NCBI GenBank assembly: GCA_001768195.1 | Contig: MENI01000030.1 | Span: forward strand, 32,168-96,167 | From: Bacteroidetes bacterium GWA2_40_15 | GTDB taxonomy: Bacteria; Bacteroidota; Bacteroidia; Bacteroidales; VadinHA17 | Direction: 5' to 3' | DNA length: 64,000 bases | Part shown: piece by piece, positions 8,656 to 62,752 of the stretch | Layout: each line of letters begins with the position of its first letter | Position numbering within the stretch: position 1 is the stretch's first letter | Notes under the pieces: model-generated | What the model was told of the DNA's origin: nothing | Databases searched by the model: none | The model's input: the letters and a program-made list of their open reading frames with translations, nothing else | Program-made: the position numbers and the translations under genes

Positions 8656-8879
8656 GCGCAGGGCACAGGGCGCAGGGCGCAGGGCACAGGGCGCAGGGCG
8701 CAGGGCACAGGGCACAGGGCGCAGGGCGCAGGGCGCAGGGCGCAGGGCACAGGGCGCAGGGCACAGGGCGCAGGGCACAGGGCGCAGCGTGGTGAGCGTA
8801 GAGCGATGAGTGGAGCGTTGAGCCGCAAGCCGTGAGTTGTGAGCCGTAGGACAAAAATTAAAAGTTAAAGGTTAAAAGT
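8656..8879 (+). repeat. 224-bp heptanucleotide tandem array between nuoD and nuoH
   Basis: Thirty-two consecutive 7-bp units run from 8656 to 8879. Units 1-18 are exact GCGCAGG or GCACAGG in the order GAGGAGGAAGGGGAGAGA (third base), and unit 19 is GCGCAGC. The 7-base register then continues through diverged units GTGGTGA, GCGTAGA, GCGATGA, GTGGAGC, GTTGAGC, CGCAAGC, CGTGAGT, TGTGAGC, CGTAGGA and finally AT-rich TAAAAGT-type units, ending 6 bp before the nuoH start codon. There are open frames through the array in several registers, but they encode only low-complexity 7-residue periodic peptides and are not genes. Confidence 0.95.
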
Positions 8880-8885
8880 ATATAT

Positions 8886-10022
8886 ATGTTACTGAATACA
8901 ATTACGAATACCTTAGTTACTCTGTCAGACCCATGGTGGAAGGTCTTTTACGATTTTTCATCCCTTACAAAGGGGATTGACGAAGGGCTGAGAAGTTCTT
9001 TGTCTCCATTCTGGGCAGTGACTGTCGAGATGGTGATCATCGGAATCCTTTTCCTGCTGTTTTATGCAGTAATAGGTCTTTTCCTGGTATATGCAGAAAG
9101 AAAGGTATGTGCTTTCATCCAAAACAGGCTGGGACCAAACAGAATCGGACCTTACGGGATCTTCCAGACAGTTGCCGACCTTATCAAACTGCTCTTCAAG
9201 GAGCTTATACCTATCAAAAATGCTGACAGCTTCCTTTTTAATCTGGCCCCATATATTGTTATTATTGTGAATTTTATGGTGCTTGCTGCCATCCCCTTTG
9301 CAAAGGGGCTTCATGCAATAGATTTTAATATCGGGATATTCTATGTGATTGCAGTTTCATCGATGAGTGTTATAGGTGTTCTTCTGGCTGGATGGTCCAG
9401 TAACAGCAAATATTCACTTATAGGTGCAATGAGAAGCGGTGCTCAGATTGTGAGCTATGAACTGTCAATCGGACTGGCGATTATAACTGTTGTCATACTT
9501 GCAGGATCGTTGCAGCTATCTGAAATCGTTGAAGCCCAGAGGACAGGATGGTTTATCTTCAAAGGCCATGTCCCGGCATTTATTGCTTTTGTCATCTATA
9601 TTATTTCCGGAACAGCAGAGACTAACCGTGGCCCCTTCGATATGGCTGAAGCTGAATCAGAGCTTACTGCCGGTTATCATACCGAGTATTCAGGTATCAA
9701 ATTTGCATTTTTCTACCTTGCCGAATATATCAACATGTTCATTGTTGCATCAATAGCTTCAACGCTGTTCCTGGGAGGCTGGATGCCTTTTCATGTAGGT
9801 AACTGGGAAGCCTTTAATCGTGTCATGGATATCATACCGCCATTTTTCTGGTATATCGGGAAAACATTCTTTGTTATTTATCTTATTATGTTGTTCAAGT
9901 GGACATTTCCCCGTTTGAGGATTGATCAACTTCTTACCCTCGAATGGAAATATCTTCTGCCAATAAATCTGGTCAATGTACTTATAATGGCTTTTTTGGT
10001 TCTGATGGGTTGGCATTTTTAG
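8886..10022 (+). CDS. nuoH: NADH-quinone oxidoreductase subunit H
   Basis: NuoH is the membrane subunit that completes the quinone tunnel and couples it to the proton channels. It has 378 residues and about eight to nine hydrophobic helices. The conserved blocks [23 protein letters not shown] (loop 1), KEL then FNLAPYI, and the [20 protein letters not shown] loop with its acidic residues are present. The start codon lies in a TATATATG context directly behind the heptanucleotide array, so its ribosome-binding region is made of repeat-derived AT-rich sequence. Confidence 0.95.
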
Positions 10023-10050
10023 TCCACAGAACGGATATAATTATATCAAT

Positions 10051-10530
10051 ATGAATAGTATAATTCAATATTTTAAAGAAATAACACAGGGAGTCGGTTC
10101 TCTCCTGAGAGGGATGCAGGTTACCAACAGATATTTTTTCAGTCCGGGTAAAATTGTCACCCAGAAATATCCGGACAACAGGAAAGATCTTGTAATGTTC
10201 GAGAGATTCAAGGGTGAGGTGGTCATGCCGCATAATGAAAAAAATGAACATAAATGCACGGGTTGTGGAATTTGTGAAATTAATTGTCCAAATGGAACTA
10301 TTGAGGTAATATCCAAAACTATTATAACTGAGGATGGAAAGAAAAAACGTATTATAGATAAACATATCTACAGGCTGGGAATGTGTACATTCTGTGCACT
10401 CTGTGTTAAAACCTGTCCCTCAAATGCACTTGCATTCTCGCAGGAATTTGAACATGCTGTATTCAACAGAGCATTGTTAATCAAGACATTAAATAAACCA
10501 GGTTCGCAACTAATGAAAGGAGTAGAATAA
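10051..10530 (+). CDS. nuoI: NADH-quinone oxidoreductase subunit I
   Basis: NuoI carries clusters N6a and N6b that bring electrons to NuoB. Two CxxCxxCxxxCP motifs are intact: CTGCGICEINCPNG (about 69-82) and CTFCALCVKTCPSN (about 112-125). The length of 159 residues is normal. With NuoE, F and G absent, this ferredoxin-like subunit would be the outermost Fe-S protein and the likely docking point for an external donor such as ferredoxin or flavodoxin (inference from other 11-subunit complexes). The stop overlaps the nuoJ start by one base (TAATG). Confidence 0.96.
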   Translation: MNSIIQYFKEITQGVGSLLRGMQVTNRYFFSPGKIVTQKYPDNRKDLVMFERFKGEVVMPHNEKNEHKCTGCGICEINCPNGTIEVISKTIITEDGKKKRIIDKHIYRLGMCTFCALCVKTCPSNALAFSQEFEHAVFNRALLIKTLNKPGSQLMKGVE

Positions 10531-11072
10531 TGACGAGTAATCAGTTAATGTTTGTTCTTTTTTCTGTCATGATCATTGTCTTTTCGATCCTGACAGTAAC
10601 TACGCGAAGGATTCTCAGAGCAGCTACCTATCTGCTGTTGGTGCTCATCTCTACTTCCGGGCTCTATTTCATGCTCAACTATCAGTTTATGGCAGCCGTA
10701 CAGCTGACTCTCTATGCCGGGGGTATAGTTGTATTAATAATATTTTCAATCCTCCTGACAAGCCACATAAGTCAGAAATTTGAACCGGTCGGGCTTAAAA
10801 AGTCAGTATTCTCAGCCCTGGCTGCAATTACCGGAGCAATTCTAAGTATTGTTACAATACTGGATTATAAGTTTTCAGCCAGCGTTGAAGCCGCCAAAGA
10901 GGTTGATATGAGACTTATTGGCAGGAGCCTGCTTTCAGTAGAATACGATGGATATGTACTTCCGTTTGAAGTTATTTCAATATTACTGCTGGCAGCAATG
11001 ATTGCTGCCATTATAGTCGCCAAAAAAGGCGGACCTTCAAAGACCAAAACACCAAATTATAATAAGGGATAA
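10530..11072 (+). CDS. nuoJ: NADH-quinone oxidoreductase subunit J
   Basis: A 180-residue membrane subunit with five predicted helices. The conserved helix-3 region, AAVQLTLYAGGIVVLIIFSILLTS, includes the pi-bulge segment that gates proton transfer in complex I. It begins inside the nuoI stop (TAATG overlap), and nuoK begins one base after its own stop, so translation of I, J and K is probably coupled. Confidence 0.94.
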   Translation: MTSNQLMFVLFSVMIIVFSILTVTTRRILRAATYLLLVLISTSGLYFMLNYQFMAAVQLTLYAGGIVVLIIFSILLTSHISQKFEPVGLKKSVFSALAAITGAILSIVTILDYKFSASVEAAKEVDMRLIGRSLLSVEYDGYVLPFEVISILLLAAMIAAIIVAKKGGPSKTKTPNYNKG

Positions 11073-11073
11073 T

Positions 11074-11391
11074 ATGATAACAGGAGTTCCAGTTCAGTAC
11101 TTTTTAATCCTGGCAACGCTTATGTTCTTTGCAGGGATTTACGGATTTCTTACCCGGCGTAACCTTATTACGATGTTAATGGCAGTTGAATTGATACTTA
11201 ATTCGGTAAATATCAATTTTATGGCTTTCAACAGATATCTCTATCCCCATAAAATGGAGGGGATGTTCTTCAGTCTGTTCGTTATTGCTGTGGCAGCCTC
11301 AGAGGCAGCTGTTGCCATCGCCATTATAATCAACATTTACAGGCGATTTGCAACAATAAATGTTGAAGATGTTAACGAGATGAAATATTGA
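11074..11391 (+). CDS. nuoK: NADH-quinone oxidoreductase subunit K
   Basis: A 105-residue, three-helix membrane subunit related to the MrpC antiporter subunit. The first buried glutamate of the proton path is in LITMLMAVELILNSVNINF, and the second is in the helix VIAVAASEAAVAIAIIINIYR. The length and spacing are typical. It lies between nuoJ (1 bp) and nuoL (25 bp). Confidence 0.95.
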   Translation: MITGVPVQYFLILATLMFFAGIYGFLTRRNLITMLMAVELILNSVNINFMAFNRYLYPHKMEGMFFSLFVIAVAASEAAVAIAIIINIYRRFATINVEDVNEMKY

Positions 11392-11416
11392 TTACTACAA
11401 ATAGAGTCAACTTAAA

Positions 11417-13336
11417 ATGATAAATTTCAGCTATACAATTTGGATCCTGTTACTGCCTTTCCTGGTGTTTCTATTGCTTGGACTGGCAGGGCATAAACTC
11501 AAGCCGAAACTGTCTGGCTTAATTGGTACAACAGGACTTGGAATAATTACATTTCTCTCATATCTCACTGCTTACCAGTACTTCTTTGCATCTGAGAAAG
11601 TTGATGGAGTATTTCAAAAGATCATTGCATTTAATGGTGTATGGCTTCAGCTGACTGAGAATCTTCATATTGATATCGGCATCCTGCTTGATCCTATATC
11701 AGTTATGATGCTTGTTGTTGTCACTACTGTTTCTTTCATGGTGCATATTTACAGTATTGGGTATATGCATGGAGAGAAAGGATTCGAACGTTTTTTTGCA
11801 TTCCTCTCCCTCTTCAGTTTTTCAATGTTAGGCTTAGTCGTGGCAACAAATATTTTCCAGATGTATATCTTCTGGGAACTTGTCGGTGTGTCATCATATC
11901 TTCTGATAGGTTTTTATTATACAAAGCCTTCAGCTGTAAGAGCTTCAAAGAAAGCCTTTATTGTTACAAGGTTTGCTGATATGGGATTTCTCATCGGCAT
12001 ACTGATACTGTCATTCAATACAAAAACATTTGATTTTATCACTCTGACAAGTCTGACAGGCCCTGCGATCACACAGACAGGCGGAGCAGCATTCATGGGA
12101 CTGTCAGTCATAACGTGGTCTATGATATTTGTATATATGGGAGGTGTTGGTAAATCGGCAATGTTCCCATTCCACATATGGCTTCCTGATGCTATGGAAG
12201 GTCCTACTCCTGTATCGGCTCTTATACATGCAGCAACAATGGTTGTGGCAGGTGTTTACCTCGTTGCACGTATGTTTCCGATATATGCGATTGCCGCTCC
12301 TGACGCATTAAATGTTGTTGCCTACGTTGGAGCATTCTCATCATTGCTGGCGGCTGTTATTGCCTGTACGCAGACTGATATAAAACGTGTGCTGGCTTAC
12401 TCCACCATGTCGCAGATCGGATATATGATGCTCGCACTCGGGGTATCAGGGTATGGCGGACATGATGGTTTAGGCTATATGGCATCAATGTTCCATCTCT
12501 TTACTCATGCTATGTTCAAAGCCCTTCTCTTCCTGGGAGCAGGAGCCATTATACATGCAGTTCACAGTAATTATATGACTGAAATGGGTGGCCTGAGAAA
12601 GTATCTGCCGATCACACATGCAACTTTCCTGATCGCATGTCTTACTATTGCCGGCATACCTCCTCTTTCAGGATTTTTCAGTAAAGATGAGATCCTTACC
12701 GCAGCTCTGCACCATAATAAACTTTTATTTGCAGTTGAGTATGCAGTTGCCGGATTAACAGCATTCTACATGTTCAGACTCTATTTCAGCATCTTCTGGA
12801 GAAAAGAGACACATTATCATCACACTCCCCATGAAGCACCTCTGACAATGACTATCCCGCTGATCATACTCGCCATCGGGTCTGTATTCTCAGGTTTTAT
12901 TCCGTTCAGTGAACTGGTTACTTCCGACAGTATGCCATTTGAATCCCATATCGAAATGGCTGTGGCAATACCTTCAGTTCTGATCGGTATTGCGGGTATC
13001 GGAATTGCATATATTATGTATAAGAAAGAGACCTCAATTCCTGACAGACTGGCTACAACATTCAAATACAGCTATAAATGGGCTTACAATAAGTTCTATA
13101 TTGACGAAGTATACCTTTACATTACAAAAAATATCATCTTCAGGTATATTTCAACACCAATAGCATGGTTTGACAGGCACATTGTTGATGGTACTATGAA
13201 TCTGATTGCATTTACCACTCAGTTGTTATCTTTCAGAATAAGAAATTATCAATCAGGTCAGCTGCAGAAGTATGGCTTCGTATTTGTAACCGGGGCCATT
13301 GCACTGGCAATCCTGTTTGCTTACCTCTGGAAATAG
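11417..13336 (+). CDS. nuoL: NADH-quinone oxidoreductase subunit L
   Basis: The most distal antiporter-like proton-pumping subunit, with the long lateral helix at its C-terminus. It has 639 residues and some 15-16 hydrophobic helices. The key acidic residue is in MYIFWELVGVSSYLLIGFYY, the key lysine in GGVGKSAMFPFHIWLPDAMEG, and STMSQIGYMMLALGV and HLFTHAMFKALLFLGAG are further hallmarks. A histidine-rich loop (HYHHTPHE) lies near residue 470. All expected residues are intact. Confidence 0.96.
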   Translation: MINFSYTIWILLLPFLVFLLLGLAGHKLKPKLSGLIGTTGLGIITFLSYLTAYQYFFASEKVDGVFQKIIAFNGVWLQLTENLHIDIGILLDPISVMMLVVVTTVSFMVHIYSIGYMHGEKGFERFFAFLSLFSFSMLGLVVATNIFQMYIFWELVGVSSYLLIGFYYTKPSAVRASKKAFIVTRFADMGFLIGILILSFNTKTFDFITLTSLTGPAITQTGGAAFMGLSVITWSMIFVYMGGVGKSAMFPFHIWLPDAMEGPTPVSALIHAATMVVAGVYLVARMFPIYAIAAPDALNVVAYVGAFSSLLAAVIACTQTDIKRVLAYSTMSQIGYMMLALGVSGYGGHDGLGYMASMFHLFTHAMFKALLFLGAGAIIHAVHSNYMTEMGGLRKYLPITHATFLIACLTIAGIPPLSGFFSKDEILTAALHHNKLLFAVEYAVAGLTAFYMFRLYFSIFWRKETHYHHTPHEAPLTMTIPLIILAIGSVFSGFIPFSELVTSDSMPFESHIEMAVAIPSVLIGIAGIGIAYIMYKKETSIPDRLATTFKYSYKWAYNKFYIDEVYLYITKNIIFRYISTPIAWFDRHIVDGTMNLIAFTTQLLSFRIRNYQSGQLQKYGFVFVTGAIALAILFAYLWK

Positions 13337-13361
13337 TTATTAAGGAAAAGATTTAGAAATT

Positions 13362-14867: not shown

Positions 14868-14904
14868 ACAGACATTTACCAATTGCTTAGCATAAAAACC
14901 TAAT

Positions 14905-16326: not shown

Positions 16327-16330
16327 TAAT

Positions 16331-16379
16331 GGCGGAAGGAAGAAGGGTGCAGGGCGCAGGAAGAAGGGCGCAGGTTACA
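16331..16379 (+). repeat. Heptanucleotide array after nuoN
   Basis: Seven in-register 7-mers: GGCGGAA, GGAAGAA, GGGTGCA, GGGCGCA, GGAAGAA, GGGCGCA, GGTTACA. The GGGCGCA unit is the same 7-mer circle as the GCGCAGG unit of the nuoD/nuoH array, read in another phase. Confidence 0.8.
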
Positions 16380-16390
16380 CGGATTTAGTT

Positions 16391-16442
16391 CCCCTCCCGG
16401 GAGAGCCTGCCCCGACCGCAGCGTCGGGGGGCAAGGGGTGGG
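16391..16442. repeat. GC-rich stem-loop element between nuoN and the next gene
   Basis: A G/C-rich block starting CCCCTCCCGGGAG contains a perfect 7-bp stem (CCCCGAC at 410-416 of 16 kb, GTCGGGG at 423-429) with loop CGCAGC, then GGGCAAGGGGTGGG. No T run follows directly, so it is a poor intrinsic terminator. A related but shorter sequence, CCCCTGGGGGGCAGGG, occurs at about 36729-36744, which suggests a dispersed repeat. Confidence 0.55.
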
Positions 16443-16467
16443 TTAATTAAGTTAAAAGGTTGAAAAT

Positions 16468-16821: not shown

Positions 16822-16828
16822 TAAGAGA

Positions 16829-16928
16829 GGTGAGAGGTGAGTGGTTAGTGGTGAGTGGTGAGTAAGTCGTGAGTCGTGAGTCGTGAGTCGTGAGCCGTGA
16901 GCCGTGAGCCGTGAGTTGGCAGTTGGCA
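16829..16928 (+). repeat. Heptanucleotide array with changing unit sequence
   Basis: Five units (GGTGAGA, GGTGAGT, GGTTAGT, GGTGAGT, GGTGAGT; 16829-16863), two spacer bases, then nine units: GTCGTGA x4, GCCGTGA x3, GTTGGCA x2 (16866-16928). It fills nearly the whole 112-bp gap between the unknown gene and the convergent aroE stop at 16934. The unit changes in blocks while the 7-base period is kept. Confidence 0.95.
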
Positions 16929-16933
16929 ATAAA

Positions 16934-17686: not shown

Positions 17687-17692
17687 TACAGA

Positions 17693-23458: not shown

Positions 23459-23474
23459 GTTGTTCGTTATATAG

Positions 23475-23566
23475 AGTTATTAAGTTATTTAATTTAAAGG
23501 CGGAAGGCGGAAGGCCGTCACAATATTACCGCTCTGCGCCCTGCGCCCTGCGCCCTTTGCCTTACA
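23475..23566 (-). repeat. Heptanucleotide arrays between ffh and argS
   Basis: Two 7-bp blocks fill most of the 103-bp gap. The first (plus-strand reading) has AT-rich units leading into GGCGGAA, GGCGGAA, GGCCGTC (23500-23520). The second reads GCTCTGC, GCCCTGC, GCCCTGC, GCCCTTT, GCCTTAC (23532-23566), which on the minus strand is the GCGCAGG unit seen elsewhere. It runs into the last codons of argS. The two blocks have opposite G-rich strands. Confidence 0.85.
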
Positions 23567-25349
23567 TCCTTTCCGGCATCTCAATACCCAGCATCCACAT
23601 ACCGGTATTCAGAATTTCACCAGTAACCCTCGACAATGCGAGCCGCAAATTCCTGACGGATTCATCATTTTCGCCAAGAATTGAATAATCGTGATAAAAC
23701 TGATTATACTCCCGGGCAAGTTCATAACAGTAATTAGCCACTAAGGCAGGAGAATAACCTTCCGCTGCTTCTGATACTCTCTCCGGAAATTTTCTGATAA
23801 GCTTGATAAGCACTATCTCCTTCTCTCCGGCTTTAACATCAGCAAGCAAACCCGGTTTTTCATTCAAACCTGTTTCTTCTGCTTTTCTGAAGACAGATTT
23901 TATCCTGGCATAGGTATACTGAATAAAGGGACCTGTATTACCATTGAAGTCAATCGACTCGACCGGATTAAATGTCATATTCTTCTTCGGATCAACTTTA
24001 AGGATGAAATATTTAAGTGCTCCAAGACCAATTTTGCGGAAAATCTCTTCTTTTTCTTCCGGTGTAAAATCAGATAGTTTTCCAAGTTCAAGAGATACCT
24101 CACGGGCTGTTTCAATCATCTCAACAATGAGGTCATCTGCATCTACAACACTCCCCTCGCGTGATTTCATTTTGCCCTCAGGAAGCTCAACCATGCCATA
24201 CGAAAAATGATAAAGGCCATCATGCCAAGGGTAACCCATTTTTTTCAATAAAGCCTTAAGAACGTGAAAATGATAATTCTGTTCATTCCCTACAACATAT
24301 ATGTTCTTATGGAACCTGTACTCATTATACCGGTCAACTGCCGTTCCAAGATCCTGTGTCATATAAACTGCAGTACCATCGGACCGAAGAAGCAGCTTTT
24401 GATCCAGTCCATCCGCAGTCAGATCAGCCCATATTGAAGAGTCTTCATTGCTGTAAAGAACATTCTTTTCAAGCGCTTCCTGGACTATTTTCTTTCCATG
24501 CTTATAAGTCTGTGATTCATAGTATATTTTATCGAAATCCACACCAAGCTTTTTATAAGTTTCATCAAACCCGGCATAAACCCACGAATTCATTCTCTTC
24601 CAGAGCTCAACGACCTCTGTATCACCTGCTTCCCATTTAAGCAGCATTTCCCGTGCTTCCTTCATCATCGGGGCAGAGTTCCTGGCCTCATTCTCATCAA
24701 TACCGCATCTCACAAGGTCTTCAATCTGGGTTTTATACTCCTTTTCAAAGAGAACATAGTATTTCCCAACAAGATGATCACCTTTTATCCCTGTAGTTTC
24801 AGGAGTTTCTCCATTACCAAATTTCTGCCAGGCCAGCATTGACTTACAGATATGAATTCCCCTGTCGTTGACAATATTTGTTTTTATTACATTATGTCCG
24901 CAGATTGACAAAATCCGGTACAATGAAAATCCAAGGAGATTGTTGCGGATATGTCCAAGATGTAATGGTTTATTGGTATTTGGAGAAGAATACTCAACCA
25001 GAATTGTTTGAGGAGAGGCGACCTTGCAGTTTCCAAGTTGATTCTTAAGTATCGCTGTTTTTCCGAAATACTCTAACCACCAGCTATCCGCTATTTCCAG
25101 ATTAAGAAATCCTTTTATGACATTATAGCCTGCTATAACATTATAGTTACCAACAAGATAATTTCCAATGGTTTCACCGGTCTGTTCAGGAGTATTCTTC
25201 GAAAAACGAAGAAGAGGAAAGACAACCAGTGTAAAATCACCTTTAAAATCTTTTCTCGTCTCCTGTAACTGTATTAATTCATCCGCAACATGGCTATTAT
25301 AAAGTGCTTTAACAGCATCCCTGATCTTTTCCCTTAGGATTATTTCCAT
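23562..25349 (-). CDS. argS: Arginyl-tRNA synthetase
   Basis: Class I synthetase charging tRNA-Arg; 595 residues with the chosen start. The HIGH motif is in SSPNTNKPLHLGHIRNNLLG, the KMSKS-equivalent is GKMKSREG, and the N-terminal Add-1 and C-terminal DALR anticodon-binding domains are present, ending MWMLGIEMPERM. A longer frame begins with TTG at 25376, but a TATCTTTG promoter element overlaps that codon on the minus strand, so the ATG at 25349 (MEIILREKIRDAVKAL) is the better start. Confidence 0.95.
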   Translation of the reverse strand: MEIILREKIRDAVKALYNSHVADELIQLQETRKDFKGDFTLVVFPLLRFSKNTPEQTGETIGNYLVGNYNVIAGYNVIKGFLNLEIADSWWLEYFGKTAILKNQLGNCKVASPQTILVEYSSPNTNKPLHLGHIRNNLLGFSLYRILSICGHNVIKTNIVNDRGIHICKSMLAWQKFGNGETPETTGIKGDHLVGKYYVLFEKEYKTQIEDLVRCGIDENEARNSAPMMKEAREMLLKWEAGDTEVVELWKRMNSWVYAGFDETYKKLGVDFDKIYYESQTYKHGKKIVQEALEKNVLYSNEDSSIWADLTADGLDQKLLLRSDGTAVYMTQDLGTAVDRYNEYRFHKNIYVVGNEQNYHFHVLKALLKKMGYPWHDGLYHFSYGMVELPEGKMKSREGSVVDADDLIVEMIETAREVSLELGKLSDFTPEEKEEIFRKIGLGALKYFILKVDPKKNMTFNPVESIDFNGNTGPFIQYTYARIKSVFRKAEETGLNEKPGLLADVKAGEKEIVLIKLIRKFPERVSEAAEGYSPALVANYCYELAREYNQFYHDYSILGENDESVRNLRLALSRVTGEILNTGMWMLGIEMPERM

Positions 25350-25373
25350 TTTTCTCTTTAAAAATTCAGGTTC

Positions 25374-25381
25374 CAAAGATA
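25374..25381 (-). promoter_or_regulatory. -7 element (TATCTTTG) of argS
   Basis: Exact TAnnTTTG match on the minus strand, 25 bases before the ATG at 25349. It excludes the TTG at 25376 as the start. Confidence 0.5.
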
Positions 25382-27636: not shown

Positions 27637-27638
27637 AA

Positions 27639-28921
27639 ATGTCTCAAGGTCCGGGTGACTCAGGGATAAGCACGAACCTTTTTATTACAGGATTTGTAAG
27701 TACTTCCATTCAGATCCTGCTTATCAGGGAGATGATGAATATCTCAGGAGGCTATGAACTTATAACAGGTATATTCCTGGATACATGGCTTATAACATTT
27801 GCAGCAGGATCATCATCTCAAATTCAGATGCCTTCAGTTATATCCGAAAATCTAAAGAAAAATCAGATGTGATTATTATGCTCGTTCCGCCGCCATCCAC
27901 ACTACTCCTTAACCGGTATTATACAACTGAGTTTTTTTCAATGATAAAGGAGCATCTTAATCCAGGTGGTGTATTTATGTGTTCACCCGGATCGGCACAG
28001 ACATACTTCAATGAAGAATCTTTAAAACTGAATTCATCTGTTTTCAATAGTTTGAAGGTGGCTTTTGCAAACGTCAAACCTGTTGCCGGAAATAAACTAT
28101 ATTTTATTGCTTCAGATAAAGTTTTATCGGCATCTTTCTGCAGACTTACGGAGCAGCAAAATATTAAGAATCATTATGTCAGTTCAGACTATCTGGCAGA
28201 TGATCTGACGGAGAGGAAATCAGACGAAATAGAAAGTCTTCTTGATCCTGAAATGAGACAAAACAGCTCCTCATTTCCAATCGCTTACAACTATTTCCAA
28301 TTATATAATTTAAGCAAAGATCTCAATGAGAAGGTACCTGCAATAGTTTTACTGATTTTACTCTTCGCAACTCCTTTGTTTGCAATTAAGCGAAAAAATC
28401 TAATAATGTATTTCAGCGCTTCGGCACTGGCCGCATTTGAGATCATCGTACTATTAACCCTCCAGCTGACTGTCGGTAATATGTACCAGCTTACAGGTCT
28501 GATCATAGCAGGTTTAATGGCCGGACTTGCAATTGGAGCGGGTTCAGATTTTTCTCGTGTCACCCCGATCTCCATTCCGGTAAAGAGTATAATTTTAATT
28601 CTATTCTATGTTTTAGCAGCTTCGGTTTATGGCTCCATAATTAAAACAGATAGCAGGTTTCCTGCTATTTGCATGATAATGCTTCTTTCATTTATTCCGG
28701 CATTTATTACGGGAAATATTTTCAGGGAACTTACCTGCGAAAGCAGAACAGGAAATCATATTGCCTCAGTTTATAGTGCTGATCTTTCGGGCTCGGCAAT
28801 GGGTTTTATAGCTGTTTCAGGATTCGCCGTTCCCGCATTCGGAACTGCAGCTACAATTTATTTTCTTGCCTTGCTTGTTTTTAGCGGATTTCTTTTTGGT
28901 ACAATCATGAACAAGCATTAG
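27639..28921 (+). pseudogene. Broken membrane-fused spermidine synthase-like gene
   Basis: Two frames carry pieces of one family. The first (27639 to about 27820) encodes the first membrane helices (TGFVSTSIQILLIREMMN, GIFLDTWLITFAAGS). The second (about 27825 to 28921) begins in the middle of a spermidine synthase-like domain (SDVIIMLVPPPSTLLLNRYY, FFSMIKEHLNPGGVF) and ends with about six membrane helices. The rest of the N-terminal membrane bundle and the SAM-binding first half of the synthase domain are absent in every frame. Family members have roughly 750-800 residues; about 427 codons are left here. Deletion plus frameshift is the simplest explanation. It begins 2 bp after the MEMO-AMMECR1 stop. 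Confidence 0.75.
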
Positions 28922-44504: not shown

Positions 44505-44507
44505 TAT

Positions 44508-44777
44508 ATGGCACAGAATGAATCAGAAATCAGATATTTAACCCCTCCGACTGTTGAGGTTAAGAAGAAAAAGTACTGCCGTTTCAAGAAAAACAAGATC
44601 AGGTATATAGATTACAAGGATCCTGAATTTCTCAAAAAATTTCTCAATGATCAGGGAAAGATTCTTCCCAGAAGAATTACAGGAACTTCACTTAAATATC
44701 AAAGGAAAGTTGCAAAGGCTGTCAAAAGAGCCAGGCATATTGCTCTTCTTCCTTATGTAACTGACCTTTTAAAATAA
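44508..44777 (+). CDS. rpsR: 30S ribosomal protein S18
   Basis: S18 pairs with S6 on the platform of the 30S subunit. The 89-residue protein has the family core [39 protein letters not shown] and the [16 protein letters not shown]-terminus. The N-terminal YCRFKKN keeps one cysteine. It lies between rpsF and rplI with gaps of 3 and 12 bp. Confidence 0.97.
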
Positions 44778-44789
44778 GGAGGATATACT

Positions 44790-45314: not shown

Positions 45315-47954
45315 TTAATACTGATCATGAAAATCTTTTCTCCTGTCATATTTCAGATCGCCAAGCACCGATGCTTTTGCACGGATTGTAAAATTCCATC
45401 CTTTCATTGATCCGTTGGGTACCCAGTTAAAGCTCATAATCCAGCAATGAAGATCGCGACGTATACCAATCTGGGTCATTGTAATTGCCTTGGAAGTAAA
45501 ATCATACCCGCTTGTATAGTCCATCAGCATCTTTTTTGTGATTGTAACACTGCCATTAAACGAAAGAGTCTGACTGATAGTAGATTTAAGTGAAGGCTTT
45601 GAGTAATTTATGCTATAACTAAGGTTTAGAGTCCAGGGCATGTCAAAATTCTGATAACCATACCTGTCTGTCATGCCTCCTCCAGGATCATCGTGATCAT
45701 CGTGATCATCCACACCTATCGGAGACCGGCTGTTATCAAACCCAATACCCTGAGAACCCGTGGGTTGTCCGGGGCTACTGGTTGATTTTTTCCCGGTAAG
45801 CAACTTGTCCAGACTCAGATCAAGGCTTGTACCAACACTGGTAAGCCTCATAAGCTTGTTATTGGCAGCAAGTGCAAAGGTACCAATGGATCTTCCCTCA
45901 CTGTTGATTCCATAAAGGTCAAAATTAGCCCTGGCAGAAATATTTATATTCTCAAGCAGTGTTGTCCTTGCCTGCATTGAAACCGGAGCCCATCGCATAG
46001 AGTCCGCAAAAACATTGTAAGAGGAAGTAATCCCGAAGTTGTCAATTATCTTAACCTTCTTTGCTATACCAGTCGTATCATTCTTTGCAAACACTTTGGC
46101 TTCTACAAGATTGACCAGACTGAAGGAGAATGATCCGCTTTTGTTAGATAGTGAAGGAGTTCCATATATGTTTCCTTCAAAAACAGAATACTCCTCATAT
46201 CTGTTACCTGAAGCATCTGTGCGCACTGTATCGTACATGTCTGAACTAAGACCTGGTATTTCAGGCACATAACTAAAACCTACTGAAGGTTTTATAACAT
46301 GCCTGATAGCCTGAACCCTGGAATTTGGGTTTAAGAATGAATACATACCGAAAATCTGAGGGTTGTAACCTGCTGATATTGAAGGATTAACAGCCTGGCC
46401 GTAAAACATTCCTGAAATTGTATCCTTTACCACCTGTGAAGTTTCATAATCAAAGGTCTTTTGGATCTTCTGAGAATAAAGCACACCTGAATAAGTGAGC
46501 GAGGGTGAGATATTGAAATTCTTAAATGGACGCAGTTGTATACTCAATGGAGCATCATGCTTAAAACCGTTCTGCATACTTTCCAGGCTCTCACCTGTAA
46601 ACAAAAGACTGTCATAAGTGCTGATCCGGTTATCGAGAGATGATGAATACTGGAACTGCAACTCCTGGTACCACTTTGTCTTTCCGGTACTTCTTTTCAT
46701 TTTCAAAGGGTAAATTCTGCCCATGTTAAAACTGACTTTGGGTAAATTTACATCAACAGTCTTATTCTTAACGTTCTGGCTATGATTTGCACTTGCTGAA
46801 AGATTGAACGGAGTGCCGGCCCATGATTTTGAGTAACTTATACTCGACTGCCTGGTTGTAGTGACGTGATCATTTACATTATAGCTGTTTTGCTGGTCGT
46901 ATCCGCTTGAACTCATATTGACACTGGCAGAAAATCTGGAACCCGGAGATGACTTGGGATCCTGGTTAAAAGCCCATCCCAGCCTGTAGTTTGTTGATTG
47001 TCCATAATCTTCAAGCCCCTTATGCCCGGTTATATTGTTAGCATAGCTGAAATTGAAATTACCATTATATTTATAGAGCTTATTATAGTTTGTAACAGCA
47101 TTGGCAAGCCAGGTTCCATTTGAATATACGTCACCTTTAATGCTCAGGTCCATATAACTGCTGATAGCAAAGTAATAACCCATATCCTTGAAGGAATAAC
47201 CACGTTCCCTTTCCTGTCCGAAACTGGGAAATAAAATCCCTGAAGAAGACCTGTTTGTATTAATCGGGAAATAACCAAAAGGTATTACAAGAGGCAATGG
47301 AATGCCTTCGACCACCAGGTTCCCAGGGCCTGAAATGATCTTCTCTCCCGGATATACCCTGGCTTTTGGCATGTTTATGTAAAAGTGAGGAGTATCTGCA
47401 TCACATGTCGAATAAGAACTCTTGGAGATATTGGAAGTACCATCCTCTAACAGTTTAGTATATGAACTATGAATAAGACCTTCGTCCTGTTTGGTAACAA
47501 TATTTTTAATAAGAGCTTTTTTAGTTTTAAAATTATAAGTCAGCTCATCAGCTTTGAACTCATTGCTTCCCTCCTTGAATACCGGAGTGCCAATCATTTT
47601 ACCACTGGTATCTCTCCTTCCTGCAGCAAAAAGCAGGTTATTACTCATATTAAAGATCATGGAATCGGCTGTGATCTCAATTTCTTCACTTCTGACAATA
47701 GCTTTATCGATGAGAATCACTCTTTTATTGGCAATATCACGTTTTACCTGTCCGGCAGCAGAGTATGTAACTTTCTGATCGATGGCGCTTGATGAAATCT
47801 TGCGAAAACCCGGCATGAGGCTATCTGCCTTTACCGAATCCTGCTTTACTATTTCATTCCCATCCGGAATTTTTGATTCCTGTGCCGCCAATGAAAATGA
47901 GATGGCCATCAACAGGTACAAAACATGAAACCGCTTTTCTTTTAAAAAATACAA
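45315..47954 (-). CDS. lptD: LPS-assembly outer-membrane protein LptD
   Basis: LptD inserts lipopolysaccharide into the outer leaflet. The N-terminal domain (about 45-200) is an OstA/LptA-like beta-jellyroll (KVTYSAAGQVKRDIANKRVI, EITADSMIFNMSN), followed by the large beta barrel with many amphipathic strands. A His/Asp-rich loop, VDDHDDHDDPGGG near residue 750, comes from a 9-bp DNA repeat. The frame can be extended to a TTG at 48005, but that codon lies in a promoter element (TAGTTTTG). The TTG at 47954 yields a good signal peptide (MYFLKEKRFHVLYLLMAISFSLAAQ in sense), so I chose it; 879 residues. An ATG at 47909 would cut the signal peptide short. Confidence 0.88.
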   Translation of the reverse strand: MYFLKEKRFHVLYLLMAISFSLAAQESKIPDGNEIVKQDSVKADSLMPGFRKISSSAIDQKVTYSAAGQVKRDIANKRVILIDKAIVRSEEIEITADSMIFNMSNNLLFAAGRRDTSGKMIGTPVFKEGSNEFKADELTYNFKTKKALIKNIVTKQDEGLIHSSYTKLLEDGTSNISKSSYSTCDADTPHFYINMPKARVYPGEKIISGPGNLVVEGIPLPLVIPFGYFPINTNRSSSGILFPSFGQERERGYSFKDMGYYFAISSYMDLSIKGDVYSNGTWLANAVTNYNKLYKYNGNFNFSYANNITGHKGLEDYGQSTNYRLGWAFNQDPKSSPGSRFSASVNMSSSGYDQQNSYNVNDHVTTTRQSSISYSKSWAGTPFNLSASANHSQNVKNKTVDVNLPKVSFNMGRIYPLKMKRSTGKTKWYQELQFQYSSSLDNRISTYDSLLFTGESLESMQNGFKHDAPLSIQLRPFKNFNISPSLTYSGVLYSQKIQKTFDYETSQVVKDTISGMFYGQAVNPSISAGYNPQIFGMYSFLNPNSRVQAIRHVIKPSVGFSYVPEIPGLSSDMYDTVRTDASGNRYEEYSVFEGNIYGTPSLSNKSGSFSFSLVNLVEAKVFAKNDTTGIAKKVKIIDNFGITSSYNVFADSMRWAPVSMQARTTLLENINISARANFDLYGINSEGRSIGTFALAANNKLMRLTSVGTSLDLSLDKLLTGKKSTSSPGQPTGSQGIGFDNSRSPIGVDDHDDHDDPGGGMTDRYGYQNFDMPWTLNLSYSINYSKPSLKSTISQTLSFNGSVTITKKMLMDYTSGYDFTSKAITMTQIGIRRDLHCWIMSFNWVPNGSMKGWNFTIRAKASVLGDLKYDRRKDFHDQY

Positions 47955-51927: not shown

Positions 51928-51932
51928 ATACG

Positions 51933-52002
51933 GCGCAGGGCGCAGGCTGAGGAGCGGAGCGACGAAGTCCCGCATGGCGGGAGCGCAGGGCAAAGCCGCA
52001 GG
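51933..52002 (+). repeat. Heptanucleotide-type array between dnaA and the convergent gene
   Basis: GCGCAGG, GCGCAGG, CTGAGGA, GCGGAGC, GACGAAG, then a stem-loop TCCCGC-ATG-GCGGGA (51968-51982) and AGCGCAGGGCAAAGCCGCAGG. It fills almost all of the 78-bp gap. Only the first two units are exact; the rest is diverged and shifted by one base. Confidence 0.7.
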
Positions 52003-52005
52003 ACG

Positions 52006-55218: not shown

Positions 55219-55228
55219 TAAGCGGCAA

Positions 55229-56093: not shown

Positions 56094-56101
56094 TATATTT
56101 G
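56094..56101 (+). promoter_or_regulatory. -7 element (TATATTTG) of the RsmI-like methyltransferase gene
   Basis: Exact TAnnTTTG match, 18 bases before the ATG at 56120. It lies downstream of an earlier in-frame ATG (56057) and so fixes the later start. Confidence 0.55.
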
Positions 56102-56119
56102 ACTAAACATTCAACAATT

Positions 56120-56815: not shown

Positions 56816-56819
56816 AGTT

Positions 56820-57314: not shown

Positions 57315-57383
57315 TATAAGTATAATTGATTGAATTGAAACTAGATTAATCCATTAACGTAAAAAACAACATTAAATTACCTG

Positions 57384-57926: not shown

Positions 57927-57930
57927 TACT

Positions 57931-58956: not shown

Positions 58957-59042
58957 TTTTACTTCTGCTTTTTTGGTTTTTTAAAGATAAAAAATATTCC
59001 GGAAGGCAAATTTTAATTAATCATGTTTCAATAATCTGAACT

Positions 59043-59465
59043 ATGTACACTGATTTTACTTTTTCAATAATTAAGCCAAACGCTGTCAGAACAGGTAAGA
59101 CCGGACCAATTCTTGCCATGATAAATGAAGCAGGATTTGAAATTGCCGCAATGAGAATGGTAAGGCTCACTAAACCACAGGCTGAATCATTTTATGCAAT
59201 ACATAATGGAAAACCTTTCTTTGAAGGACTGATTGAATTTATGACATCAGGCCCTGTAGTGGTTATGATTTTAAGGCATGAAAATGCTGTTGAGCAATTC
59301 AGAAAGCTGATCGGATCAACTGATCCCGCTAAGGCAGAGCCTGGAACCATCAGAAAACTATATGCTGTATCTGTGCAGATGAATGCGGTTCATGGATCGG
59401 ATAGTGTTGAGAATGCTGCCATAGAGGCTGGTTTCTTCTTTTCCAGAATTGAAAGGTTCTTATAG
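59043..59465 (+). CDS. ndk: Nucleoside diphosphate kinase
   Basis: Ndk transfers phosphate between nucleoside di- and triphosphates through a phosphohistidine. The 140-residue protein has FSIIKPNAVRTG at the start and the active-site His117 in NAVHGSDSVENA. The length matches bacterial Ndk. It starts 86 bp from the divergent nrnA gene; the unknown 582-residue gene follows after 53 bp. Confidence 0.97.
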   Translation: MYTDFTFSIIKPNAVRTGKTGPILAMINEAGFEIAAMRMVRLTKPQAESFYAIHNGKPFFEGLIEFMTSGPVVVMILRHENAVEQFRKLIGSTDPAKAEPGTIRKLYAVSVQMNAVHGSDSVENAAIEAGFFFSRIERFL

Positions 59466-59518
59466 AGAAAACATTCTGTCCGTTGTCGTGTTAATAGTAT
59501 TTAACTTTTATCCAACAG

Positions 59519-61267
59519 ATGCAATCTGATTTAAATCCTTTATTCTCAAATAAGAAAACACTTGAGAAATATTCTTCGGCTTTCACATTGTCCGACATGG
59601 AGATCTTCATATTTCCTGAGCTTTTTTATCCGCTTGTTATTGCTAATATTATGTCTCCCGTGTTATGGAAATGGAGAGATGATCCATGGTTTAAGGGTAT
59701 TGAGAAAAAGAATTTTAACAGCAAGGCAAACAGAATAAAACAGTATATAATACAGAATTACATATTCAATCTTGACCTTTCAACCTGGGGCCTCACATCA
59801 AAAACTAACGAAATAGCCCGATTCAGTGATTTTTTTGATATTGAGTTGCTTAAACAATCCAATGCGCTTTTCGGGTATGAGGGAGACAAATATTATTTTG
59901 ATATTGATATAAGAAAACACTTTGGCCTCGATAAATATAATTCGGATATAATTCCTTATTGGAAAACTGAAACTATCGAGGCAATGAATGCTTTCAAACA
60001 TAAGGAAAAAAATTCCACGGGGGCAGGTGAATGTGTTTCACTATCAGCGCTTTATGCATCAGCTCTTTTTGTGGTTGGGAGGATACCTCTCGAAAAGATT
60101 TTTCTGATAGCAACTCCACTTCACTCTCAGAATTTTGTAACTGAAAAAGAAGGTCTGATCACGAATAACAGAAGAATTGTCACTAAAAACATGTGGTATA
60201 ATGGTACTTCATTTTCAGAAAAAGCAAGAAGAGCCCTTGAGAATGAAAAAGTTACTATAGTTGCCCACATAACAGGCTATATACATGTTCTGTACAATGA
60301 TGCTACCATCAATAAAAGTTCCTACAATTTGTTTTCACAAAAACTTACAGAGTTTCTGAAAAGTGAACTTACAAGCCTGGTTTTCATAAACTTCCTGCGT
60401 TTCAAGTCAAAATACAAAACACTTTTCCAGTACAGATGCGAGTGTTCAGGAAAAAACAGGTACATCTCCCTTGAGAAAATGTTTGAATATGAACACACCA
60501 GCAAATACAATGTATCAGCTGATACCCGTGCTTCCCTCGTAAAGGAAATCGAGGGTGATGAGTTTCACCTCAGCCCTATCCTGGGTAAAATATTCCTGAA
60601 TGACATCGAGAACGTACTGGATAACTCAGCAGGTAAGAGCCTGGAAGCTATCAGGAATGAAGTTAATATATCCAGAGGCACTGTTTCTGAAGATGTTATA
60701 ACTGAAATGTTCAATGATATACATGACTTTATTATCACAGATCCCTGCTTGCCTGATTCTGGAAAGGACTATAAAGAGACTTATACTCTTTGTTTAAGTA
60801 CATTCGACAGCCGGGAAACAATTATTGAAAAGATCAATAACTCAATAGATAAATCAGAGTTATCGCTCCTTTCATTGTATGTGTACAGGGATATGGATAA
60901 AATTGACTGGTTGCCTTTCATAAAAGCTGCCATTGAGCGAAATCCTGTCTGCTTCAACGATCTGAATGAAAAAAGTACAGATGAAGTTTATAAGTTATTA
61001 ATCAATATGTCGAATGACTCGGTATATGACAACAACAGGCTTGCTTTACCCGATGAGATATGGAACTTCAAACGTGGTGACGGAATTGAGAAGGCACTTC
61101 TGCTTTCAGATATTATAGTTCAGAGAGAAAACTCTGCCGGTATTGAAATCATAATAGACAGGGAAAAGGTTTCTCTTGAATCAGCGGGGAGCGTATTTCA
61201 ATTTACATCGCATAAAAACTTCAGAAAGAGGATCAGTATCAGAGGAAAAGAAATCTCGGTTGAATAA
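59519..61267 (+). CDS. Large unknown protein with transglutaminase-like Cys/His motif
   Basis: A 582-residue soluble protein with no signal peptide. I do not recognise a named family. The central region (about 160-200) reads STGAGECVSLSALYASALFVVGRIP ... FLIATPLHSQNFVT (split here), which has the layout of a transglutaminase-like cysteine enzyme core: Cys at the start of a helix, small residues, then a strand ending with His. The third catalytic residue is not clear. N- and C-terminal regions are helical and acidic. It could be a cytoplasmic peptidase or amidase-like enzyme or an inactive relative. It lies after ndk and is convergent with the DUF721-recF pair. Confidence 0.75.
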   Translation: MQSDLNPLFSNKKTLEKYSSAFTLSDMEIFIFPELFYPLVIANIMSPVLWKWRDDPWFKGIEKKNFNSKANRIKQYIIQNYIFNLDLSTWGLTSKTNEIARFSDFFDIELLKQSNALFGYEGDKYYFDIDIRKHFGLDKYNSDIIPYWKTETIEAMNAFKHKEKNSTGAGECVSLSALYASALFVVGRIPLEKIFLIATPLHSQNFVTEKEGLITNNRRIVTKNMWYNGTSFSEKARRALENEKVTIVAHITGYIHVLYNDATINKSSYNLFSQKLTEFLKSELTSLVFINFLRFKSKYKTLFQYRCECSGKNRYISLEKMFEYEHTSKYNVSADTRASLVKEIEGDEFHLSPILGKIFLNDIENVLDNSAGKSLEAIRNEVNISRGTVSEDVITEMFNDIHDFIITDPCLPDSGKDYKETYTLCLSTFDSRETIIEKINNSIDKSELSLLSLYVYRDMDKIDWLPFIKAAIERNPVCFNDLNEKSTDEVYKLLINMSNDSVYDNNRLALPDEIWNFKRGDGIEKALLLSDIIVQRENSAGIEIIIDREKVSLESAGSVFQFTSHKNFRKRISIRGKEISVE

Positions 61268-61289
61268 CATACTGGAATGAATGAAATCC

Positions 61290-61580
61290 CTATCGCAGGA
61301 CAATATCTCTAATCACCTTATTACCTGCTTTTTCATTTAGTTTATCTCTAAGTGATTCTCTCAACATCATAAGTTCATTCCTTACCACTGAGGAATTAAG
61401 GTGTACATAAAGAACATGATCTTTTATGTATATCTTTGATGTCCTGGAGCTTATGGCTTTACCAACTATCTCTTCCCATGAATTAATCAGAGCTGTTTCA
61501 CCAAGCTTCTCACCCAGATTCATTTCAGTTATGTAATCTTTGATTGCTTCGGCAAGTGTTATGGTTTTGCTTCGTCTCAT
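61290..61580 (-). CDS. DUF721 domain protein (DciA-like)
   Basis: A 96-residue protein of the DUF721 family, which includes DciA, the ancestral loader or regulator of the replicative helicase DnaB. Features are the helical N-terminus, LINSWEEIVGKAISSRTSKI and IKDHVLYVHLNSSVVRNELMMLRESL. The start overlaps the recF stop by one base (TGATG), so it is translationally coupled to recF. Its position next to recF, with dnaA about 10 kb away, fits a replication role; a direct DnaB link is not shown here. Confidence 0.85.
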   Translation of the reverse strand: MRRSKTITLAEAIKDYITEMNLGEKLGETALINSWEEIVGKAISSRTSKIYIKDHVLYVHLNSSVVRNELMMLRESLRDKLNEKAGNKVIRDIVLR

Positions 61581-62704
61581 CAGCTGTTTTTTCCATTCCG
61601 TGTAATAACTTCAACCCTGTTTTCTGAAATATTGAAGAGTTTGTAATCGGTATTGTGCGAGGTCAGAATTTCATGCAACCTGCTCTGGTGAGTATCTGTT
61701 ATAAATATCTGTCCGAACCTGTGGTTCCCAACGAGTCGTATTATCTGTTCGACTCTTTCTGCATCAAACTTGTCGAAAATATCGTCGAGTAATAATATCG
61801 GAGAGAATCCGGCTTTGTGTTTTATGTAATCAAATTTTGCAAGTTTCAGTGAAACAAGATAGGATTTCTGCTGACCCTGTGAACCCAGCGATTTAACAGG
61901 GAAATCGTTCATGTCAAGTAACAGATCATCCTTGTGTATACCGACTGTTGTATATTCCAGAATCCTGTCCTTGTTTATTGCATTTGCAAGAGTTAGTCCG
62001 AAATCGCCCTCAGACAGGTGCGACCTGTATTGAAGCTTTACCGTTTCCTTTCCTGATGAAATCAATGAATAGTATTCCTGAAACACAGGAATAAGCTCCT
62101 TAACCAGAAGATCTCTCTCCTTGAAAATATAACTTCCGTACTTTATTAGCCGCGAGTCCCATCCGGAAATCATATCGCTATCGAATTTCCCTGATGATCT
62201 GAAATCTTTCAGCAGTTGGTTTCTCTGTTGAAGAGCCTTGTTATACTTCAGAACAGAATCAAGATATTCAGCATTGTATTGGCTTATAATTTTATTCATG
62301 AACCTCCTGCGATCTTCACTCCCTTCGGAAATCAGAACGCTGTCGGCAGGAGAAATCATTACAACAGGATATCTTCCAACATGTTCAGAAAGTTTCTGGT
62401 ACTCCTTCCCATTTCGTTTAAGTAACTTTTGTTTCTGCTTCTGGAATGCACAATATATCTGATCTTCCCCGTCATTCCTGGCCATTGTTCCCTGCAGAAT
62501 GAAATAGTCTTCTCCATGACGAATGCTTAGACTGTCAATATTATTGAAGAAACTCTTTGCAAGCGACAGGTAATGAATTGCATCCAGAATATTAGTTTTA
62601 CCAACTCCGTTGTTCCCGACAAAACAGTTTATTTTTGGCGAAAACTCAAGTTCAGTCAGTTCGTAATTTTTGAAATTGGTAAGTATAAGATTCTTAAGAT
62701 ACAT
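61580..62704 (-). CDS. recF: DNA replication and repair protein RecF
   Basis: RecF is an SMC-like ATPase that loads RecA at gaps through RecOR. With the ATG at 62704 it has 374 residues (MYLKNLILTNFKNY). The Walker A is FVGNNGVGKTNILDAIHYL, the signature is VKSLGSQGQQKSYLVSLKLA and Walker B is PILLLDDIFDKFDAERVEQI, all intact. Extending upstream gives only repeat-derived codons and a TTG start at 62716. The heptanucleotide array begins right at the start codon and would form the leader. Confidence 0.95.
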   Translation of the reverse strand: MYLKNLILTNFKNYELTELEFSPKINCFVGNNGVGKTNILDAIHYLSLAKSFFNNIDSLSIRHGEDYFILQGTMARNDGEDQIYCAFQKQKQKLLKRNGKEYQKLSEHVGRYPVVMISPADSVLISEGSEDRRRFMNKIISQYNAEYLDSVLKYNKALQQRNQLLKDFRSSGKFDSDMISGWDSRLIKYGSYIFKERDLLVKELIPVFQEYYSLISSGKETVKLQYRSHLSEGDFGLTLANAINKDRILEYTTVGIHKDDLLLDMNDFPVKSLGSQGQQKSYLVSLKLAKFDYIKHKAGFSPILLLDDIFDKFDAERVEQIIRLVGNHRFGQIFITDTHQSRLHEILTSHNTDYKLFNISENRVEVITRNGKNS

Positions 62705-62752
62705 TTCAGGGTTCAAAGTTCAAAGTTCAGGGTTCAAAGTTTAAAATGTAAA
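62704..62752 (+). repeat. Heptanucleotide array in the recF leader
   Basis: Seven in-register units (plus-strand reading): TTTCAGG, GTTCAAA, GTTCAAA, GTTCAGG, GTTCAAA, GTTTAAA, ATGTAAA. It directly abuts the recF start codon on the other strand, so the transcript leader would be repeat sequence. Between 62753 and 62927 there are only A-rich stretches, including short AAAAGAC repeats. Confidence 0.88.

Follow-up and report, generated by a model that had tools for sequence, protein, structure and literature searches.

A 64,000-bp stretch of Bacteroidetes bacterium GWA2_40_15 (contig MENI01000030.1, positions 32,168 to 96,167), referred to below as the window, carries tandem arrays of 7-base units between its genes, and the regularities of these arrays go beyond slippage. 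The strongest regularity, absent from the initial annotation of the window, is a polarity toward gene edges: starting at the nearest gene edge, the G-richer strand mostly reads 5′ to 3′ into the gap, whatever the direction of the gene. Outward polarity across families with unrelated units is new here.

Polarity of the arrays at gene edges

Arrays were collected from the genome holding the window (G000, a 4.77-Mb draft), from 80 named nuoL loci (nuo80; 1.42 Mb, all Bacteroidota apart from two labelled Chlorobi or Chlorobiota) and from G348, the genome containing the named locus L071, labelled Candidatus Azobacteroides sp. G- and L-labels denote genomes and individual loci, respectively. The five best full-length named matches to nuoL of G000 were 83-86% identical, all from uncultured Bacteroidales or Bacteroidia. 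The G000 sample used for polarity included 15 stretches chosen for matching a (GTCGTGA) pattern. Genes were defined as open reading frames (ORFs) above a length cut (60 to 120 aa, varying by analysis), not by annotation. Polarity ratios exclude neutral arrays (|G-C| <3) and gap-filling arrays (within 12 bp of both edges).

Arrays oriented outward from the gene edge outnumbered the others 39:9 in G000 (tandem gaps 27:7, convergent 6:1, divergent 6:1), 25:3 in nuo80 and 6:0 at the nuo loci of 14 relatives, four of which share sequence with nuo80. For periods 8 and 9 the ratio was 25:7 over four sets, and a first count of convergent gaps, with gap-filling arrays and two period-8 arrays counted, gave 14:1. 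The rule was first seen in G000 and nuo80 and was tested afterwards in the distant genome G348, picked because of its many arrays; over 379 kb the ratio there was 41:3, at least two of the 41 being already in nuo80. The most GC-skewed 35-mers of array-free gaps were unbiased (116:134, 140:122 and 55:45), so that a general skew is ruled out. Median distances to an ORF were 4.5 bp on the 5′ side of the G-richer strand vs 108.5 bp on its 3′ side in G348, and 17 vs 90 bp in G000. The most regular half of the array lay at the gene edge in 37 vs 12 of 49 decided edge arrays; for arrays away from edges this ratio was 9:14.

Within co-directional gaps, arrays (n = 53) lay at a median of 9 bp after the upstream stop codon and 49 bp before the next start codon. 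Of 42 stop-adjacent arrays, 35 had a sense strand with more G than C (G000 19:4, nuo80 16:3; two ties excluded), and array-free 3′ flanks were unbiased (170:162 of 356 and 206:199 of 445). A set of 41 GGCRCAG arrays was assembled from that of the window and 40 fetched by motif (20 from G000, 15 from G007, 3 from G346 and 2 from G005); 24 of the 41 start at most 15 bp from a sense stop codon and one lies beside an antisense stop. Start-adjacent arrays, taken together, showed no sense bias (11:12). When gap-filling arrays were counted, the sense strand in the right half of co-directional gaps was C-rich vs G-rich in 16:10 cases. These counts on the start side led to a simpler rule for gaps of any kind, with G-rich arrays toward the left gap edge and C-rich arrays toward the right. 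The stop codon itself was rejected as a general seed of the arrays: its triplet is repeated 7 bases further along in 4 of 26 arrays of G000 and 2 of 21 of nuo80, and it is in phase in 6 of 21 arrays of G348.

The 32 gaps of G348 comprised 14 two-armed gaps (each arm with at least two exact units), 15 single-arm gaps, all of which obeyed the rule, and 3 mixed ones; in all 8 C-only gaps the array sits before the next start codon. Two-armed gaps would be expected of a mobile repeat, similar to miniature inverted-repeat transposable elements or to repetitive extragenic palindromic (REP) sequences, whose convergent heptamer arms are spread in trans by a transposase such as Y1 (IS200/RAYT-type). Genome-wide families, inserts and PF01797 proteins in 11 of 12 array genomes agree with such an element as well. 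Nevertheless, it is judged an unlikely source: the arms lie at gene edges with sequence between them that is unrelated by eye, single arms are common and follow the polarity rule, and the copy numbers of the two arms are uncorrelated (rho 0.25, P 0.40, 14 gaps). PF01797 was without match in array-rich G007 (97% complete), and a Y1 transposase is therefore perhaps not needed there. No target-site duplication was found by eye at the convergent gap 16822-16933 of the window, and no arrays were found by eye in the flanks of one of the five Y1 genes of G000, the one in L039. Palindromic units as in REP sequences and bacterial interspersed mosaic elements were not found, single heptamers not being hairpins; only the arrays pair mutually.

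The nearness to sense stop codons (24 of 41 GGCRCAG arrays, vs 1 of 41 beside an antisense stop) would also suit a function at the RNA level, in which arrays act as terminators, G-quadruplexes or protein-binding sites at transcript 3′ ends. Convergent arms are able to pair, and cold-shock proteins can each bind one heptamer (PMC4679880). Such a function is nonetheless considered very unlikely. Before the next start codon the sense strand is more often C-rich (the 16:10 cases and all 8 C-only gaps of G348), i.e., antisense in the same geometry, and identical geometry at stop and start edges argues against a role of the RNA. In addition, the same-genus genome G015 is without several of the arrays, and arm lengths are mismatched, unlike those of a selected hairpin. 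Quadruplexes are possible only for GGG-bearing units; GGG tracts are present by sequence in GGGCRCA and not in ARTTAAG, GTYGTGA, AAAAGAY or GTTCAAA.

Polar recognition of the Chi type was considered as a further source of orientation: AddAB/RecBCD moving in from a break in the gap would be halted by G-rich units, and arrays in the active orientation would survive. The orientation of the arrays is the active one for Chi. PDDEXK_1 proteins were found in 12 of 12 array genomes, many of them in what we take to be AddB-sized frames, but they do not discriminate because they also occur in 12 of 14 control genomes, E. coli among them. Moreover, ORFs show no clear enrichment of the units (AGTTAAG 2 vs 3.5 expected in 286 kb; GGCGCAG 32 vs 26.5), and among the rotations of all units tested the highest-ranking one, AAAGACA, is only 259th of 16,362. 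A Chi-like role for heptamer units is possible but unsupported, and as the origin of the polarity it is regarded as highly improbable.

Period-7 arrays in the window and in other genomes

The window was scanned with Tandem Repeats Finder (TRF) and with a lag scan (lags 2 to 30), and all six places listed by the initial annotation were also read directly. The following features were obtained; the names nuoD, nuoH and nuoN were assigned from the sequence.

8655..8787, plus strand: GGCRCAG array, 19 units GGCGCAG/GGCACAG with G and A mixed at position 4 (TRF, lag scan)
8788..8852, plus strand: degenerate heptamers of GTGAGC and GCCGTGA types prolonging the nuoD-nuoH array (read; within a relaxed-threshold segment)
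8853..8879, plus strand: AAAAGTT heptamers immediately before the nuoH start (TRF)
16331..16374, plus strand: mixed GGCGGAA/GGCGCAG units directly after the nuoN stop (lag 21 segment)
16389..16442, no strand assigned: GC-rich hairpin-like element (TTCCCCTCCC..GGGGTGGG) (sequence)
16825..16928, plus strand: array of GAGAGGT, GGTGAGT, GTCGTGA, GCCGTGA and GTTGGCA, filling the gap between convergent genes (TRF, lag scan)
23497..23515, plus strand: GGCGGAA units, short arm of an inverted pair (sequence)
23530..23556, minus strand: GGCGCAG array, beginning 5 bp downstream of the stop codon of gene 23562-25376, itself on the minus strand (TRF)
51928..52005, plus strand: GGCGCAG units flanking a GC-rich element, between convergent genes (sequence)
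62705..62752, plus strand: GTTCAAA/GTTCAGG array (TRF, lag scan)

Four of the six places are strong arrays by TRF or lag scan; the other two are weak alone and lie below the lag-7 threshold, 16331-16379 being detected at lag 21 only (16337-16374) and 51933-52002 holding two full GGCGCAG units and a different GC-rich element. Four segments were found at lag 7. Lags 3, 6 and 9 gave one common CTC tract and lag 9 also 45686-45710; lags 14, 21, 25 and 28 gave the same arrays again, plus 16337-16374; no segments were found at the other lags between 2 and 30.

The 8655..8787 array begins 9 bp past the nuoD stop, its G-rich strand being the sense strand. A common plus-strand order of units had been proposed for the two long arrays, from G-rich GTGA units over CGTGA units to AT-richer ones, and is right for these two; it fits the geometry described above, because the G-richer units start at the stop codon and the AT-richer ones precede the next start. 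The change of motif within an array had further been read, tentatively, as the sign of a copier moving in steps of 7. By itself it does not call for one, since slippage and mutation keep an existing register of 7; such a copier is conjectural.

For an unbiased sample of G000, 44 stretches (688,210 bp) were picked by contig number and arrays were scored at a threshold of >=15. Period 7 accounted for 32 of 58 tandem arrays, followed by periods 8 (10), 6 (6, five on one contig), 9 (3), 10 (2) and 12 (2), with one array each at 16, 21 and 30. One first-order Markov copy of the sample (local composition) gave 0 arrays, as did 150 kb of E. coli K-12, whose own simulated copy gave one at lag 29. The excess of a single short period over simulated sequence that is typical of slippage microsatellites was thus present (32 vs 0). 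In nuo80, 43 of 78 arrays had period 7, 9 had period 8, 5 had period 9 and 21 had all others; the two loci labelled Chlorobi or Chlorobiota carried no period-7 array. The peak stayed at 7 under varied mismatch penalties (22 to 27 segments vs 6 to 11 at period 8). Period-7 arrays are real; many of the Bacteroidota loci examined carry them, others do not.

Exact copies gave a more even picture. Over 24 stretches of G000, exact two-copy duplications numbered 53 vs 29 expected at period 7 and 14 vs 6 at period 8, so that the excess at 7 is not special beside 8. Exact runs of at least three copies in these stretches were in excess at period 7 (7 vs 0.33 expected) and also, in G000, at 6 (6 vs 0) and 12 (5 vs 0). 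In nuo80 such runs were prominent at period 7 (20 vs 0.33), with 3 at period 8, 3 at 9 and 1 at 6.

Location between genes, described as exclusive in the initial annotation, is nearly so: 77 of 83 non-redundant period-7 arrays lay mostly outside ORFs (81 of 92 with another ORF cut). Arrays fill the whole gap in a few cases, not often as had been suggested, 4 of 61 G000 arrays (arrays without GC skew left out) lying within 12 bp of both edges.

Several side observations were made. A GC-rich hairpin-bearing element (CCCCTCCYGGGAGGGG..AGGGGTGGG, plus variants) lies at 16389-16442 of the window and adjoins GGCRCAG arrays elsewhere (L232, L233, L236, L238, L240-L243, L248 and L250), and a similar element adjoins a different heptamer array in the nuoN gap of L042. 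A dispersed element, GGAGCGRAGCGACGAAG, was rejected as a carrier of the arrays because only 6 matches at <=1 mismatch were found in G000. Some contigs end in or right beside arrays (L258, at the contig end of G007:C42, and G007:C22:95), so that arrays may break assemblies. Contigs from IMG/VR hold similar palindromic heptamer pairs with GTSGTGA or GCGAATA-type units (L189:1849-1968, L192:2902-3208 and L193:4639-4905). At 44505-44789 of the window, a gap in the ORF list, a short open frame below the 100 aa cut ends just before 44790; we take it to encode ribosomal protein S18.

Unit families, two-state bases and turnover

Some motifs form families across many loci. (GGCRCAG)3 had 87 overlapping matches in G000, at 22 loci; of 41 genomes in the genus 21 contain it, G000 among them, vs 0 of 295 other genomes drawn from the phylum. 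An ARTTAAG-type 21-mer (<=3 mismatches) had 604 matches in G348, and none of ten other genomes exceeded 24. Among 36 G000 arrays, 47 of 630 unit pairs were within one base vs 10.9 for letter-permuted units (maximum 23, 1000 permutations), and in nuo80 this held for 33% of 24 within-genome pairs vs 7% of 875 between-genome pairs. The claim that units differ between loci does not apply to these families; it stands for most motifs, as 1.05 Mb of G000 held 124 different units at 187 two-copy heptamer loci, which places most G000 units outside any large family.

Two unrelated families each have a unit base that takes either of two states, at random with respect to the neighbouring unit. GGCACAG (136) and GGCGCAG (115) made up 251 of 399 units counted over the 41 GGCRCAG loci, followed by GGCTCAG (16) and AGCACAG (15); this tally also covers out-of-register units and the stretch that separates two arrays at L266. 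Neighbouring units were equal in 66 of 131 cases in 25 GGCRCAG arrays (65-68 expected) and in 53 of 100 cases in 28 ARTTAAG arrays (57-59 expected). This independence is unlike slippage, since duplicating slippage should produce an excess of equal neighbours; the neighbour likeness expected of slippage microsatellites was found in neither family.

Orthologous gaps (38 of the window) were listed in the same-genus genome G015, gene ends there being extrapolated from tblastn. Array-free gaps differed by <=5 bp in 22 of 32 cases and by more in 10, G015 being longer in two of these by 366 and 1147 bp. One array-free gap, 27637-27784, measures 148 bp in the window vs 1295 bp in G015, a difference that is probably one of gene content or start. 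Gaps with arrays were longer in the window: 240 vs 52 bp for the nuoD-nuoH gap (8646-8885), 141 vs 15 bp for the nuoN gap (16327-16467) and 103 vs 37 bp for 23459-23561. The convergent gap 16822-16933 measures 112 bp (16 x 7), and in G015 the flanking stop codons touch (0 bp). Its ortholog measures 0, 4, 12 and 14 bp in L172, L043, L176 and L173, respectively, and at least 41 bp in the other measurable relatives. A gain of this array in the lineage of the window is the simpler reading, because the gap is touching or 4-14 bp long in relatives.

At 62705 a GTTCAAA-type seed is common to both genomes, with about 2 units in G015 and about 5 in the window. The 51928 site of G015 holds AAGGCTK heptamers, its tblastn-extrapolated length of 0 bp not being real. 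The nuoN gap is 10 to 15 bp long in L043, L046, L072, L172 and L173 and holds different heptamers in L042, L045, L174 and L176. Between nuoD and nuoH, other species have 7-base arrays of TAGTTTA, ATTTACC, GGTGACY or GGTAAAA, or none, in which case the two genes often abut or overlap. The constant period with many unit sequences, the core of the initial annotation, is thereby borne out: the period outlives the motif, since the same orthologous gap bears different heptamers across species.

Known heptamer repeats and the origin of the arrays

Short tandemly repeated repetitive (STRR) sequences are known from heterocystous cyanobacteria and comprise several different heptamers per genome, as here, in another phylum; the parallel with known heptamer repeats had been drawn correctly. 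Calothrix heptamers are mentioned in PMC4692102, which reports on Xanthomonas and Nostoc. GGGAATC of Xanthomonas forms convergent pairs (70 and 75 cases in two strains) and lies nearer to the 5′-side ORF (mean 28 vs 160 nt), the same polarity as here for one family. GGGGA(C/T)T of Nostoc has a two-state C/T base and only few inverted pairs. Both resemble the present arrays in period 7, mostly intergenic location, a lineage-specific unit and convergent pairs; that study describes one family per genome, tied to G-quadruplexes, whereas here, in Bacteroidota, one geometry is common to several families whose units are unrelated and often unable to form a G-quadruplex. A 5′ side of the G-richer strand nearer to the ORF was found in both G348 and G000, and convergent pairs in G348. 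A two-state base is also reported for GATAGRA of Chloroflexus (PMC6749651).

TAACTGA repeats of Beggiatoaceae, Cyanobacteria and some Bacteroidetes are intergenic heptamers as here, and in some Bacteroidetes their long arrays are mixed with other heptamers. In that work (PMC4679880) the unit is fixed and, in the Guaymas Maribeggiatoa genome, is found mostly immediately before start codons, where it is interpreted as a translational signal; the present units differ, and G-rich arrays abut stop codons. An excess of heptamers in bacteria was described by Mrazek and colleagues (2007), who proposed a 7-base polymerase contact (cited in PMC4692102 and PMC4679880). The same excess is seen among long simple sequence repeats of 7-base units, Bacteroidetes included, where the median category is 0.75 for 7n3 and 0 for 6n3 and 8n3 (PMC4060949 Table 2); unlike the arrays here, these repeats are described without unit families, a two-state base or polarity in the portions of PMC4060949 considered and in Mrazek 2007 as cited. 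In short, published work on single families already covers the excess of heptamers, the convergent pairs and the short distance to the 5′-side ORF (PMC4060949 and PMC4692102). A literature search, with most subscription journals outside it, gave no statement of polarity across unrelated units or of neighbour-independent two-state bases, and on stop-adjacent or Flavobacterium heptamers nothing new beyond PMC6749651.

The arrays are favoured to be lineage-specific heptamer satellites colonising intergenic gaps, and probably have no function in the cell. For their origin, DNA-templated extension of the 3′ ends that breaks leave in gaps, with later slippage, is tentatively preferred, at less than an even chance, because the G-richer strand is the one whose 3′ end faces the gap. 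DNA 3′ ends at intergenic breaks or gaps would receive units copied from existing arrays, array DNA serving as the template, and each broken end would gain G-richer heptamers reading outward. Two extended ends, once rejoined, would give a convergent pair, and later in-register slippage, mutation and decay would reshape the arrays. Genes would only bound them, since selection would remove insertions into genes. For the step of seven, the simplest addition would be a seven-base contact length of the copying enzyme, following the idea of Mrazek and colleagues.

Several points weigh against extension of 3′ ends. No break, intermediate or enzyme was observed. G007, G008, G330 and G346 gave few usable arrays, with polarity 1:1 at period 7 and 4:0 at periods 8-9, and 14 loci from viral contigs gave 12:4. 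Edge truncation alone could give the greater regularity at the gene edge. A fixed 3′ terminal phase, suggestive for ARTTAAG, was dropped, being confounded by the higher variability of unit positions 5-7. Nor is the step always 7, as there are period-8 arrays with the related unit GGCRCAAN or alike, i.e., GGCRCAG plus one base (L041:16280-16362, L226:15784-15879, with both convergent arms of period 8 by eye, and L135:7191-7290). The 124 different units at 187 loci count here as well. In 7 AAAAGAY arrays equal units are in excess at lag 2, AAAAGAC and AAAAGAT alternating ten times in one array, and GTYGTGA shows a GTCGTGA block followed by a GCCGTGA block, which is slippage-like. The arrays of G000 have 49% GC vs 34% in other intergenic DNA, which is hard to obtain by slippage of local sequence and so speaks for extension; this argument is only local, because AT-rich arrays are found elsewhere (mean GC of 25% for the stop-adjacent ones of nuo80), and individual G000 arrays span 15 to 87% GC.

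Replication slippage of the ordinary kind, favouring 7-base steps through polymerase contact and followed by mutation and purging from genes by selection, with families as a few successful seeds, would draw on some of the same points. The heptamer excess is already known (PMC4060949 Table 2), the GTTCAAA seed has grown from about 2 units in G015 to about 5 in the window if read in this way, AAAAGAY shows a 14-base alternation and most G000 units are not common to several loci. What slippage does not predict is an outward polarity in all three types of gap (tandem, convergent and divergent), neighbour-independent two-state bases, or a 112-bp array where stop codons touch in a relative; as the whole explanation it is rather unlikely.

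An RNA-templated (telomerase-like, reverse transcriptase) origin was rejected, PF00078 (RVT_1) not being found in 8 of 12 array genomes, which include G348, G007 (97% complete) and G346 (94%), completeness figures being at hand for 4 of the 12. The only PF00078 reverse transcriptase found in G000 is L312 (G000:C101:581-1243; 475 aa), presumably of the group II intron type. A 3′ end of the G-richer strand facing the gap, as expected of telomerase-like extension, is given by the polarity, and a break at that position would be presumed. A very slim possibility is that a terminal-addition activity without a canonical reverse transcriptase, in several phyla, adds one-position-degenerate G-richer heptamers to 3′ ends at intergenic breaks, as in telomere-like chromosome healing; convergent pairs would then be healed and rejoined ends, and 7 the template or register length of the enzyme.

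The dominance of heptamers among bacterial intergenic repeats has been a standing question since 2007. The polarity seen in families with unrelated motifs and the randomness of the two-state bases suggest that slippage by itself is insufficient. They yield clear predictions of which strand and which end grow, and in which direction, and any rival explanation must account for the same rule. If units are added at broken ends, the arrays would record break repair between genes, and the unit families could act as fast lineage-specific markers.

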